Source: Bacteroidota bacterium (GTDB lineage Bacteria; Bacteroidota; Bacteroidia; JAFLBG01). From it: a stretch of 50,637 nucleotides of DNA. Shown one piece after another: positions 19,464 through 43,917 of the stretch (its first letter is position 1; every line of letters starts with the position of its first letter). The DNA lies in the NCBI GenBank assembly GCA_017303975.1, contig JAFLBG010000025.1, positions 1 through 50,637 of the forward strand, in the 5' to 3' direction. Made by a program: the position numbers and the translations under genes. The notes under the pieces are model-generated. The model had not been told where the DNA came from. It did not search any database and saw only the letters and a list, made by a program, of their open reading frames with translations.

Positions 19464-19928
19464 ATGAAAGCAAAAAAAAATCTCTTAGTAAGAGGCATTG
19501 TGCCTTTTATGTTCCTGTTTGTGGCAGTATTTAGTTCTTTTACAGGCCCTACCACAAATTCAAAAACAACAACTCCTCCTTCATTAGGTCCTGATGTAAG
19601 TAAATTTCTTATTGGAGAATGGGCGTTAGACTCAAAAGCCATCATCAATGGAGAACGAAATAAAACTGTTACAGTATATAACTTTAGAGGCGACCAAACC
19701 TTATCAATTGATGTTGATGGTGTGGTAACAAACGGAGATTATATCGTATCAAGCAACAGTATCGTAATGATATTACCTCAAAAAGATAACAAGTTGGTTT
19801 TTCAGCACAGCAAAACACTTCAATCTATTACCAATGAAAAGATTGAATGGTATTATTTTTTGTGTGGTAAAAAAGTTACAGAAACATTATATAAAAAAGG
19901 TACAAGAGCTTATTTATCCTCATTTTAA
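19464..19928 (+). CDS. Small exported lipocalin-like protein
   Basis: The ATG at 19464 is chosen (154 residues), because an in-frame TTG eight codons upstream lies within or directly after the promoter element. The N-terminus is a signal peptide (LVRGIVPFMFLFVAVFSSF) ending near residue 25, followed by a Thr/Ser-rich linker. The remainder starts 'LIGEWALDSKAI' and continues with short beta strands, which resembles the lipocalin-like domain of small Bacteroidetes proteins. Ligand and role are unknown. It has its own promoter and ends at a bidirectional terminator. Confidence 0.72.
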   Translation: MKAKKNLLVRGIVPFMFLFVAVFSSFTGPTTNSKTTTPPSLGPDVSKFLIGEWALDSKAIINGERNKTVTVYNFRGDQTLSIDVDGVVTNGDYIVSSNSIVMILPQKDNKLVFQHSKTLQSITNEKIEWYYFLCGKKVTETLYKKGTRAYLSSF

Positions 19929-21332: not shown

Positions 21333-21916
21333 CAGTACTCATTATTGTTAGATAGCGCAAAGCAGCTTCTACAAAGAGGTTCGTAGCTTTCTTTTTCTCC
21401 CAATAAAACTTGTCCTTGCTCTTCAATTATACGATGAGAGTGGTTTGCTAAATTTCCGCAACGCATACAGATAGCGTGCACTTTTGTAATATACTCCGCA
21501 ACTGCCATCAAATTTGGAATTGGACCAAATGGTTCTCCTAAATAATCCATATCCAATCCGGCAACGATAACACGCATTCCTTGATTTGCCAACTGATTAC
21601 AAACATTTACCAATTCCATGTCAAAAAACTGTGCCTCGTCAATTCCAATAACATCAACATCTGTAGCCAACAATAAAATATTGGATGATGTAGGAACCGG
21701 AGTAGAGCGAATAGCATTGGAATCATGCGACACCACATCACTTTCATGATAACGAGTGTCTATCTGCGGTTTAAAAATTTCTACCTTCTGTTTGGCAAAC
21801 TGTGCACGTTTTAATCTTCGAATAAGCTCTTCTGTTTTGCCCGAAAACATAGATCCACAGATTACTTCGATGTAACCTGAGCGCTTCTTATAATTTATAG
21901 TGTTTTCGAGAAACAT
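21329..21916 (-). CDS. tdk: Thymidine kinase (type II)
   Basis: 195 residues. It phosphorylates thymidine to dTMP in pyrimidine salvage. The P-loop [18 protein letters not shown] is at about residues 21-38, followed by [13 protein letters not shown], the catalytic 'IGIDEAQFF' block and the lasso region. The structural zinc ligands are present as CMRCG and LCRSC. The length and layout are those of the bacterial/TK1-type enzyme. It is the first gene of a two-gene unit with the cytochrome/monooxygenase gene, an association with no obvious functional meaning. Confidence 0.95.
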
Positions 21917-35428: not shown

Positions 35429-36490
35429 TTATTTGAAAAATTTAGCTACAAAAACGCCTTTATCCGTTGCTACTTTTACTACATACAAACCCGATTGAAC
35501 ATTAGAAATAGGAAGTTCTATTATTTCTTGATTTGTATGCCTTTCATTCAACGTAAGTACGATTCGTCCGCTCACATCAAGAACATCAATCCTATCAATT
35601 AAATAATCCTGTTCTGTTTCAAGAACTACCTTGTTGTCTGCGTGATATACTTTAAACGGATTTACAACACTAGCGGATGCAATGCCGGAATGAATGCTCA
35701 TTTGGTTTTGTATCCAATTTAAAAATTGCGACACATTAGTATATACACCCGGATAGTTTGTGGCAGCACATCCATTACCCCAACTCACAATTCCTGTTAA
35801 AACCCAATTGCCATTCTCATCGGTAAATAAAGGCCCCCCACTATCCCCCCAACAAACATCTTTACCGCCTGCCATATAGCCTGCACAAAGCATGTTAGAT
35901 GTTACAAAACCATTATAGGAATTAGCCCCATTGCATATCCATGACCCTACAATTGGAATATCAACCTCTAATAAATCATTAGAGCCATTACCTGTTAATG
36001 TATCTATTGCCCCCCACCCTATAGAACGTTGCATCCGACCATCAATTACTAAGGAAGTATCATTTGCAGGAGGTAGTAAAATAGGTGTTATTGTGGAAGA
36101 AACTGGAGTTGTTAGTTTTACAAGCGCAATATCGTAATCTTGAGTAACCATACTATACAAGCTATGCGTATAGATTGCACTTACACTATAAGTAGAAAAC
36201 CCGGGCTGTGGATTCTGTAAATTATATGCATTCAAAAAAGCAATAAAACTGGAAGGAGATTCCCCTGTCATACAATGTGCAGCAGTTAAAACCCATTGCG
36301 GTGCAATAAGCACTCCCCCACAAAATTGAGTAACTAAATTTGAATTGCTTGCTAGCCCAACCATCCAAGGATAGCTTCCCACGGCAGATACAGAGCCTCC
36401 AATAATTGATTGCGCCCGAAACTTAGTATTAAAATTGAGCAAAAAAAACACTATGACTATTTTAAATATATAATTAGATGCTTTCATCAA
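35429..36490 (-). CDS. Secreted trypsin-like serine protease with type IX sorting domain
   Basis: 353 residues. Signal peptide (about 4-26), then a peptidase S1 domain beginning at the mature-like N-terminus IIGGSVSAVGSYPWMVGL. The catalytic triad is complete: His in LTAAHC, Asp in DYDIALVK, Ser in CWGDSGGPL. The disulfide cysteines of S1 proteases are present. The C-terminal about 75 residues (NPFKVYHADNKVVL... LDVSGRIVLTL...GLYVVKVATDKGVFVAKFFK) are a type IX secretion type A sorting domain, so the enzyme is exported across the outer membrane. Its start overlaps the aroK stop by 17 bp (or 14 bp if the second Met is used). Confidence 0.92.
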   Translation of the reverse strand: MMKASNYIFKIVIVFFLLNFNTKFRAQSIIGGSVSAVGSYPWMVGLASNSNLVTQFCGGVLIAPQWVLTAAHCMTGESPSSFIAFLNAYNLQNPQPGFSTYSVSAIYTHSLYSMVTQDYDIALVKLTTPVSSTITPILLPPANDTSLVIDGRMQRSIGWGAIDTLTGNGSNDLLEVDIPIVGSWICNGANSYNGFVTSNMLCAGYMAGGKDVCWGDSGGPLFTDENGNWVLTGIVSWGNGCAATNYPGVYTNVSQFLNWIQNQMSIHSGIASASVVNPFKVYHADNKVVLETEQDYLIDRIDVLDVSGRIVLTLNERHTNQEIIELPISNVQSGLYVVKVATDKGVFVAKFFK

Positions 36491-42194: not shown

Positions 42195-42389
42195 TTAGTT
42201 TTTTTTATCGGTAGTTGAATCCCCATCTACACCTTTAGATGCATCCTTAAATTCTTTAATTCCTTTGCCAAAACCTTTCATCAACTCAGGTATTTTTCGT
42301 CCACCGAATAATACCAAAATAATGATTAAAATAATGATTATTTCTTGTCCACCTAACCCAAACATGCCCAATAAAATTGAAGTTAACAT
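42195..42389 (-). CDS. tatA: Twin-arginine translocase subunit TatA/E
   Basis: 64 residues, typical length. One N-terminal membrane helix (about 15-30, [12 protein letters not shown]), the hinge [16 protein letters not shown], an amphipathic helix ([10 protein letters not shown]), and a charged tail. TatA multimers form the protein-conducting part of the Tat pathway for folded proteins. tatC is not in the window. It lies immediately downstream of the first small-RNA cassette and upstream of gatA. Confidence 0.93.
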
Positions 42390-42448
42390 AGTAGTTTATT
42401 TTATGTAAATGTATGAAAAAAAAGTACAATATGAGTGGGGTTAGGCAT

Positions 42449-42570
42449 AAAAAGGCAAGAGGGTTAAATTCCGTAGAACTTAACCCTCTTGCAACTTAAC
42501 CCATGAAAGCAAATCGTTTATATATGGTGTTATATAAGTCAGTATGTCAAATAATCATTAACAATGATTA
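42449..42570 (-). ncRNA. Putative small RNA, cassette 1
   Basis: Predicted minus-strand transcript of about 120 nt between a strong promoter (42576-42605) and an intrinsic terminator. It can fold into three hairpins: a 5' stem of 8 bp (TAATCATT/AATGATTA, 42552-42570), a middle 7-bp stem (42518-42524 with 42531-42537), and the terminator (42455-42492). The terminator has a 13-bp stem, a one-pair mismatch, 3 more bp and a cUACGg tetraloop, followed by TTTTT (42449-42453). No ORF longer than three codons is visible inside. The unpaired stretch before the terminator contains GGGTTAAGTT, which is repeated in the terminator arm. The start and end are inferred from sequence only. Confidence 0.75.
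42455..42492 (-). terminator. Intrinsic terminator of small-RNA cassette 1
   Basis: Arms 42455-42467 and 42480-42492 (gcaagagggttaa with its complement), then a short inner stem and a cUACGg loop on the minus strand, followed by five T. The UACG loop appears only on the minus strand, which supports leftward transcription. Confidence 0.9.
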
Positions 42571-42575
42571 CGATA

Positions 42576-42605
42576 CAAATATACACCTTTTTTTATTCAA
42601 GTCAA
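42576..42605 (-). promoter_or_regulatory. Bacteroidetes promoter of small-RNA cassette 1
   Basis: On the minus strand TTGAC (TTG at 42603-42605) is followed after 19 bp by TATATTTG (42576-42583). This is a perfect match in motif and spacing. The spacer sequence differs from cassette 2, but both motifs are kept. Confidence 0.9.
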
Positions 42606-42648
42606 GAGTATTTAAAATAAAAATATTCTTTTTGACTTGGAGGGGTAT

Positions 42649-42769
42649 AAAAAGGCAAGAGGGTTAAATTCCGTAGAACTTAACCCTCTTGCAACTTAAC
42701 CCATGAAAGCATCGTATATATAATGGTGTTATATAAGTCAGTATGTCAAATAATCATTAACAATGATTA
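42649..42769 (-). ncRNA. Putative small RNA, cassette 2
   Basis: Same architecture as cassette 1: 5' hairpin (42751-42769), middle 7-bp hairpin (42717-42723 with 42729-42735), terminator hairpin with UACG loop (42655-42692), and TTTTT (42649-42653). The middle hairpin uses a different base-pair register from copy 1 (left arm TATATAA instead of TTATATA) but is still a perfect 7-bp stem, which is what selection on RNA structure would give. Function unknown. Confidence 0.75.
42655..42692 (-). terminator. Intrinsic terminator of small-RNA cassette 2
   Basis: Identical hairpin to cassette 1 (arms 42655-42667 and 42680-42692), UACG-type loop on the minus strand, and a TTTTT tail at 42649-42653. 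Confidence 0.9.
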
Positions 42770-42774
42770 CGATA

Positions 42775-42804
42775 CAAATATACACACATTTTCTTATTTG
42801 TCAA
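42775..42804 (-). promoter_or_regulatory. Bacteroidetes promoter of small-RNA cassette 2
   Basis: TTGAC on the minus strand (TTG at 42802-42804), 19 bp, then TATATTTG (42775-42782). The spacer bases differ from cassette 1 while both hexamer-like motifs and the distance are identical. Confidence 0.9.
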
Positions 42805-42864
42805 GTAATTATTTTAATTTTTTCGAATAAATGTCGTAATATATTGATAATGAGACTAAAAAAA

Positions 42865-43917
42865 TTATATGTTCTTTTGCTCCAAAATCATTTCTCTTAA
42901 ATTTGGACGTAAACGACTCTTGTAAACCGACAAACAATCTTGCTTTGCTCTTCCTTTTCTAATTTTTCGTTGTTCTTCAATTGGCAATTGGCTAATCTCC
43001 ATACACTTTGGCGTACAACAGCCTTTCATTTTCTCTTTGCAGTTTTCACACTGAATAAATAGCAAATGGCAATCGTCATTTGCGCAATTGGTGTGTTCAT
43101 CGCACGGAGCATTGCATTGATGGCATGTGCTTATGATATCGTTTGTAATTCGCTCGCCCAATCGTTCATCAAACACAAAATTTTTACCTATAAATTTAGA
43201 TGGTAAGTTTTCTTCCTTAATTTGTTTAGCGTAATCAATTATTCCACCATGCAACTGGTTTACATCTGTAAATCCAACATGCTTAAAGTAGGCGCTTGCT
43301 TTTTCGCAACGTATTCCGCCTGTGCAATACAGCAATACTTTTTTATCTTTTTTGTCTTTTAGTTTTTCAACTACCAAAGGCAATTCCTCTCTAAATGTAT
43401 CTGCATCAGGGCAAATAGCGTTTTGAAAGTGCCCTACTTCGCTTTCATAATGATTGCGCATATCTACAACAATGGTGTCGGGCTGTTCCATTGCTTCGTT
43501 AAATTCTTTTGCGGTTAAGTGTTTCCCAACGTTCGTTACGTCAAATGTGCTATCATTTAACCCATCAGCCACTATTTTGTTTCTAACCTTTATTGCCAAT
43601 TTGTAAAACGATTTTCCATCATCTTCTACAGCAAGTTTAAATGGGATATTCTCAAACTCTTTGTGGACGAAAAGTTGTTGTTTAAATAATTCAAGATGTT
43701 CTGACGGAACACTCATTTGTGCATTTACGCCTTCGTTGGCTAAGTAAATTCTTCCTAATGCACCCAATGCGCTCCATTCCTTAAACAACTCATCTCGCAT
43801 CTTTTTAGGGTCGTTAATAATAACGTATCTGTAAAAAGAAAAAGTAGTTCGTTTAACAGTATCTTTTGCTAAACGTTCTTTTAATTCGTTTTTATTTACT
43901 CTATTATACAAAAACAT
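42865..43917 (-). CDS. trhO: tRNA uridine(34) hydroxylase TrhO (rhodanese family, YceA-like)
   Basis: 350 residues. TrhO hydroxylates uridine 34 in some tRNAs using O2, en route to 5-methoxy- or carboxymethoxyuridine. Family marks are an N-terminal 'FYRYVIINDPKKMRDEL' and 'GRIYLANEGVNAQMSVP' domain, a rhodanese domain with the active-site Cys in LLYCTGGIRCEKASAYF, and a Cys-rich C-terminal part with CHQCNAPCDEHTNC, CEKCKE-like and CCTPKC clusters that probably binds zinc. A -7 element lies only 4 bp before the ATG, so the mRNA may be leaderless. Confidence 0.92.
   Translation of the reverse strand: MFLYNRVNKNELKERLAKDTVKRTTFSFYRYVIINDPKKMRDELFKEWSALGALGRIYLANEGVNAQMSVPSEHLELFKQQLFVHKEFENIPFKLAVEDDGKSFYKLAIKVRNKIVADGLNDSTFDVTNVGKHLTAKEFNEAMEQPDTIVVDMRNHYESEVGHFQNAICPDADTFREELPLVVEKLKDKKDKKVLLYCTGGIRCEKASAYFKHVGFTDVNQLHGGIIDYAKQIKEENLPSKFIGKNFVFDERLGERITNDIISTCHQCNAPCDEHTNCANDDCHLLFIQCENCKEKMKGCCTPKCMEISQLPIEEQRKIRKGRAKQDCLSVYKSRLRPNLREMILEQKNI

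Follow-up and report, generated by a model that had tools for sequence, protein, structure and literature searches.

Between trhO (42865-43917) and tatA (42195-42389) are two near-identical minus-strand cassettes: what do they encode, and what might their products do? They lie in a 50,637-nt stretch of DNA from a bacterium of the Bacteroidota, analyzed here over its whole length (the window), with the names trhO and tatA taken from NCBIfam.

Twin cassettes with their own promoters and terminators

The two cassettes repeat at a spacing of 199-200 bp and share one order of elements: TTGAC and TATATTTG with 17 bp between them, then about 123 nt, a hairpin of 17 bp whose loop is cUACGg, and T5 (Table 1). 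They are near-identical from the -7 box through the T-run and their flanks have diverged, with identities of 8/17 in the promoter spacer, 5/20 in the 20 bp above the -35 box and 16/40 in the 40 bp past the T-run. A preliminary description of this DNA had reported two minus-strand cassettes 200 bp apart, promoters in which TTGAC and its spacing are kept while the spacers differ, and a terminator with a cUACGg loop and T5 in a fixed direction. Both cassettes were located where it had placed them, and the promoters and terminators are present in both copies as described. The minus-strand direction follows from the T-run and from one stem pair, G-U on the minus strand vs an A/C mismatch on the plus strand. 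The same description gave a segment of about 120 nt without meaningful ORFs; the RNA strand indeed holds ORFs of only 8-16 codons, and the length is corrected to a predicted RNA of about 123-124 nt.

RNA starts were predicted by placing the -7 box at -12 to -5, the position mapped in Flavobacterium psychrophilum (PMC9723704). The strict pattern TTGAC-17-TATATTTG occurs twice in the window, at the two cassettes, and in none of 100 shuffles. Across the 3.43-Mb genome it occurs three times and the reversed pattern does not occur. The third exact copy (G000:C31:17030-17059) immediately precedes a gene taken from its sequence to be bioB, and because this sole further copy precedes bioB, the pattern is supported as a strong promoter of the organism. 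Each cassette thus has a promoter and an intrinsic terminator of its own and is short and non-coding, as in a trans-acting base-pairing sRNA gene. In sequence the two cassettes are two transcription units, from which we infer that they are transcribed.

Table 1. Positions in the window of the predicted elements of the two cassettes and of two predicted targets
Feature	Positions	Strand	Details
Predicted small RNA, copy 1	42648..42770	-	about 123 nt
Predicted small RNA, copy 2	42448..42571	-	about 124 nt
Promoter, copy 1	42775..42804	-	TTGAC 42804-42800, 17-bp spacer, TATATTTG 42782-42775; predicted start near 42770
Promoter, copy 2	42576..42605	-	TTGAC, 17-bp spacer, TATATTTG; predicted start near 42571
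5' hairpin, copy 1	42751..42769	-	UAAUCAUU-GUU-AAUGAUUA, at predicted 5' end
5' hairpin, copy 2	42552..42570	-	identical to copy 1
Possible middle hairpin, copy 1	42717..42735	-	7 bp, CACCA loop; read from sequence; competes with linker pairing
Possible middle hairpin, copy 2	42518..42537	-	letters differ from copy 1, still 7 bp with CACC in loop; read from sequence
Candidate seed, copy 1	42691..42711	-	UGCUUUCAU (anti start codon) joined to GGGUUAAGUUGC (anti leader)
Candidate seed, copy 2	42491..42511	-	identical to copy 1
Terminator hairpin, copy 1	42655..42692	-	17 bp, cUACGg loop; T5 42649-42653; 5' arm with second GGGUUAAGUU
Terminator hairpin, copy 2	42455..42492	-	T5 42449-42453
Predicted target, secreted 154-aa unnamed protein	19464..19928	+	MKAKKNLLV; leader AACTTAACC
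Predicted target, trypsin-like protease with type IX sorting domain	35429..36487	-	starts ATGAAAGCATC; leader TTTTGCAACT

The cassettes have no detected relatives

Rfam gave no family at gathering score in the window save tRNA-Lys, and the cassettes had no match at that score (Rfam 15). Their low-threshold matches were spurious eukaryotic and plus-strand ones far below gathering score. The preliminary description had not recognized a 6S RNA and had raised a dispersed MITE as a possible identity. Neither applies: there is no RF00013 match and no long hairpin with a central bubble, a 6S search across the whole genome found nothing, and the genome holds exactly two copies of the cassette. No homolog was detected by BLAST in 395 genomes of the class, by a covariance model of the cassette in 395 class genomes, by BLAST in the 50 genomes with the most similar TrhO, or in phage and plasmid collections, and two patterns had no match in IMG/VR. 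The source genome is the only member of its order in the genome set compared.

Several short or partial matches were set aside. BLAST matches of 19-37 nt in 13 class genomes are chance-like, none of those inspected having a matching promoter and terminator, and a 20-nt match in the best TrhO relative falls inside a glycosyltransferase gene. Covariance-model matches in four genomes were generic terminators or unrelated, one being another terminator with a UACG loop.

Gene order was compared with relatives. tatA was detected beside trhO in 0/80 of them, the cassette is not beside trhO in relatives, and a promoter of the same type follows trhO in only three of the 80. Upstream of tatA, where the region is readable in the right direction, the relatives have a promoter box instead of a cassette. 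The twin cassettes thus occupy a point where gene order is broken and, within the reach of these data, are specific to the lineage. In several relatives the gene before tatA, by eye an M23-type peptidase, ends just ahead of the box TATCTTTG.

With two copies only, no Rfam match and no detected homolog, the cassettes are neither a MITE nor a described RNA. They appear to be real, undescribed, lineage-specific twin sRNA genes, and none of the computational tests refuted the preliminary description's reading of them as such. The sequence makes a good case for them as candidate regulators of type IX secretion cargo.

Predicted folds of the twin RNAs

The predicted RNAs start with a hairpin of 8-9 bp whose palindrome occurs in a 445-kb sample of the genome only at the two cassettes. 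The palindrome was also considered as a protein-binding operator and rejected as evidence for a regulon, the sample having no further site. In the middle part, both copies can form an AU stem of 7 bp closed by a CACC loop despite two indels and one substitution, which, from two sequences, is weak evidence that a hairpin is kept. The whole-RNA fold favours pairing of the middle part with the linker over this hairpin. The linker, UGCUUUCAUGGGUUAAGUUGC, lies before the terminator and is identical in both copies. When the RNA is folded alone, the GGGUUAAG part of the seed is mostly paired with the middle region, which counts against seed access.

The full-length RNAs fold with z-scores of -5.8 to -7.4. 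This is due to the terminator; the 5' 72 nt contribute little (z -0.85 to -1.3, hardly better than shuffles). Among 76 simple terminator-like hairpins in 445 kb of the genome, a cUNCGg loop is found only in the two cassettes.

The linker is complementary to a recurring mRNA leader

Reverse-complemented, the linker UGCUUUCAUGGGUUAAGUUGC matches a recurring mRNA leader, TTTG-4nt-AACTTAACC...ATGAAAGCA; it can also be read as the reverse complement of GCAACTTAACCC-ATG-AAA-GCA. A first pass covered 309 ORF starts in 445 kb; 1.18 Mb was then added, and the target statistics rest on 1234 ORF starts in 1.63 of 3.43 Mb (48% of the genome). In the first pass the linker alone gave duplexes far beyond shuffled controls (best -29.6 vs a control mean of -21.8 kcal/mol), and its best duplexes cover start codons. 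The 5' single-stranded part and the middle part were rejected as seeds, as their best duplexes were no better than shuffled controls.

Of all 7-mers between -40 and -1 of the 1234 starts, CTTAACC comes second in enrichment (14 observed vs 1.6 expected) and AACTTAA fifth (36 vs 5.7). Along the complement of the RNA, enrichment peaks at the linker and at its copy in the terminator arm, and elsewhere is at most weak and AT-rich. CTTAACC is followed by ATGAAA within 30 nt in 25/124 cases, four of the 25 being the cassettes' own plus strand; this count is the highest among 210 permutations of the CTTAACC letters (pooled 678/40914). The two blocks also go together, the leader being associated with ATGAAAGC beyond ATGAAA alone (p 3.9e-5 to 9e-6), although this and the other p-values given here are too small because the targets include several paralogous or adjacent genes, with clusters on contigs C1 and C7. 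The spacing from TTTG to AACTTAAC is usually 4 nt (9/88 vs 0.8% in controls), and from this spacing the leader is the predicted mRNA 5' end. Among 726 ORF starts of relatives, a set with only 10 cargo genes, CTTAACC is not enriched (1 vs 0.9 expected).

Duplex energies with the linker reach -24 kcal/mol or lower at eight starts and -22 or lower at nine, and all nine genes have signal-peptide-like starts. Eight starts at -24 were reached by 0/150 shuffled linkers and 0/150 random genome windows; at -22, two of 150 random windows also reach nine starts, which counts against the finding. When the whole folded RNA was paired with the starts, leader genes took most of the top ranks, with z down to -5.9. 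The 1.18 Mb taken after the idea had formed gave the same result again, with the pattern in 14/85 cases, signal-peptide-like starts in 11/12 genes, a cargo p of 1e-5, and four starts at or below -22 kcal/mol vs 0.9 expected. The seed is thus complementary to several unlinked mRNAs beyond chance, as in a trans-acting base-pairing sRNA, on the evidence of one genome and with no homolog for covariation.

Predicted targets encode secreted proteins

By a simple rule, 13 of the 14 CTTAACC genes have signal-peptide-like starts (Fisher 1.9e-6). AACTTAA precedes 14/71 type A cargo genes vs 24/1163 others (p 3.9e-9), and many of the CTTAACC genes are cargo of type IX secretion. According to NCBIfam and Pfam, type A sorting domains are present in leader-bearing or best-pairing genes that include two C10 proteases with an inhibitor prodomain, four members of a beta-propeller-like family and one PKD protein. 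Two type B proteins and a secreted nuclease are also in this group (NCBIfam, Pfam), as is an amidase with a CUB domain and a borderline type A match.

In the best example, at C1:101293, CCCAUGAAAGCAU is predicted to pair through 13 bp and CAACUUAA through 8 bp, the intervening mRNA being looped out. The strongest single duplex is with the 150-aa first ORF of the group on contig C1, which may be a broken gene. That contig has a run of adjacent secreted-protein genes with PKD and type A/B sorting domains, all with the leader and a ATGAAAGCA start (G000:C1:91458-101742). Another cluster of leader-bearing secreted-protein genes is found on contig C7 (G000:C7:14361-41179), where the DNA upstream of those at 21462 and 27544 is identical and two ORFs, seemingly decayed or frameshifted, break off at 8 or 13 codons.

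Other readings of the cassettes

In the main rival reading, the RNAs are real and their complementarity is a fossil, the plus strand deriving from the inverted leader and start codon of a secreted-protein gene and the RNAs having another job or none. The plus strand of the cassette does read as leader and ATGAAAGCA, and truncated leader-bearing ORFs elsewhere in the genome (13, 8, 50 and 40 aa; contigs C7, C13 and C40) show that material for such an origin is around. We nevertheless consider it unlikely: both copies keep a strong minus-strand promoter and a terminator while their flanks have diverged, the seed is identical in the two, its blocks are directly side by side in the RNA with the anti-leader block present twice, and on the plus strand the ORFs (6 and 54 codons) lack both conservation and a promoter box ahead.

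The cassettes might instead serve the tatA-gatA operon, which lies 56 nt downstream of copy 2, as promoter-leader-attenuator units with conditional read-through. Strand and order are those of tatA, whose own box is weak (TACATTTA where relatives have TATCTTTG), and GGGUUAAGUU ahead of the terminator could compete with the 5' arm for the 3' arm. Yet every alternative is far weaker than the 17-bp stem, copy 1 forms a whole unit that is over before copy 2 starts, and there is no match to a leader peptide, T-box or riboswitch. Before tatA we found neither a mutually exclusive antiterminator nor a conserved ligand-binding domain, and in relatives readable in the right direction a promoter box of its own precedes tatA, without such a leader. 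Because copy 1 is self-contained and none of the competing structures is stable, this arrangement is improbable.

An untranscribed repeat, such as a mobile element or duplicated terminator, would fit two near-identical copies with a long inverted repeat, but is very improbable, the least likely of the three. The 3.4-Mb genome has just two copies, the promoters are exact and their spacers diverged, neither flanking duplications nor a transposase was noticed, and the anti-leader statistics also speak against a repeat.

A proposed bipartite clamp on the leader and start codon

The reading we prefer is that the cassettes encode twin trans-acting sRNAs, which probably base-pair with secreted-protein mRNAs, mostly those of type IX secretion cargo, over the start codon and at the 5' end; the most likely effect is repression of translation. 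Each of the two duplicated sRNAs of about 123 nt would be independently transcribed and consist of a protective 5' hairpin, a variable middle, the seed and a very stable terminator. At the extreme 5' end of the mRNA, seed block GGUUAAGUU would pair with AACUUAACC; at the start codon, block UGCUUUCAU would pair with AUGAAAGCA. The blocks adjoin in the sRNA; in the mRNA, 0 to about 20 nt separate their partners, and this stretch would be bulged out. With the start codon covered, initiation should be blocked: closed to ribosomes, the mRNA would be repressed in translation. At about even odds, in our judgement, this defines a regulon in which many unrelated secreted-protein genes share the 5' leader AACUUAACC and the start AUGAAAGCA, and the twin sRNAs clamp both ends in a bipartite duplex, so that one RNA would set the collective output of secreted enzymes and adhesins. 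The leader may also have a further purpose, and one can speculate that two copies provide dosage or, through their differing spacers, different timing.

Bacteroidota do without Shine-Dalgarno initiation and often without Hfq. A search of this genome did not detect Hfq. The only RRM protein found in it (G000:C41:31179-31388) has about 98 aa and an N-rich tail and is RbpB-like; such a single RbpB-type protein is a possible partner of the sRNAs.

Relation to known sRNAs

By kind these would be base-pairing sRNAs, which are already known; the new part would be the regulon and the bipartite leader clamp. To our knowledge, sRNA regulation in the phylum is little known outside Bacteroides and Flavobacterium. 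The preliminary description proposed no function, and the anti-leader complementarity supplies a candidate. If it is true, a whole class of secreted proteins is under one RNA via a common mRNA 5' end, and the regulon is readable from sequence alone and can be tested with simple reporters. The comparison of enriched leader words with sRNA linkers could also find targets of other orphan sRNAs in single genomes.

The twins resemble the FopS family/GibS of Bacteroides thetaiotaomicron in being paralogous Bacteroidota sRNAs with a sigma-A type promoter and a terminator hairpin, and in having a seed for the start-codon region of surface-protein mRNAs, with the RRM protein RbpB as partner there and a candidate RRM protein here (PMC11697453). 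FopS RNAs act at sites covering or near the start codon (PMC11697453). FopS has 14 dispersed copies, a seed in the single-stranded 5' end and susC-like transporter targets (PMC11697453), unlike the twins with their two tandem copies, a seed just before the terminator and predicted type IX cargo targets. No sequence match was found among the families of Rfam 15.

Rfp18 of Flavobacterium psychrophilum is likewise a Bacteroidota sRNA predicted to pair with several secreted-metalloprotease mRNAs and an adhesin mRNA (PMC9723704). Unlike the twins it is a single gene, widely conserved in Flavobacterium (PMC9723704). Its deletion lowered two protease mRNAs, a positive sign, so activation is also possible for such sRNAs (PMC9723704). 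OmrA and OmrB of Escherichia coli are, like the twins, two homologous base-pairing sRNA genes produced by duplication in one intergenic region (PMC12692685). They are conserved through Enterobacterales and aided by Hfq (PMC12692685), whereas here Hfq was not detected and no relative has the pair.

In an unrelated member of the class, a terminator (G241:C17:1782-1891) reads GGGGGAGATTCTACGGAATTTCCCCC followed by TTTTTAT and has the same loop context, TTCTACGGAA, as the cassettes. The UACG loop in this context is perhaps a favoured terminator loop in the phylum.
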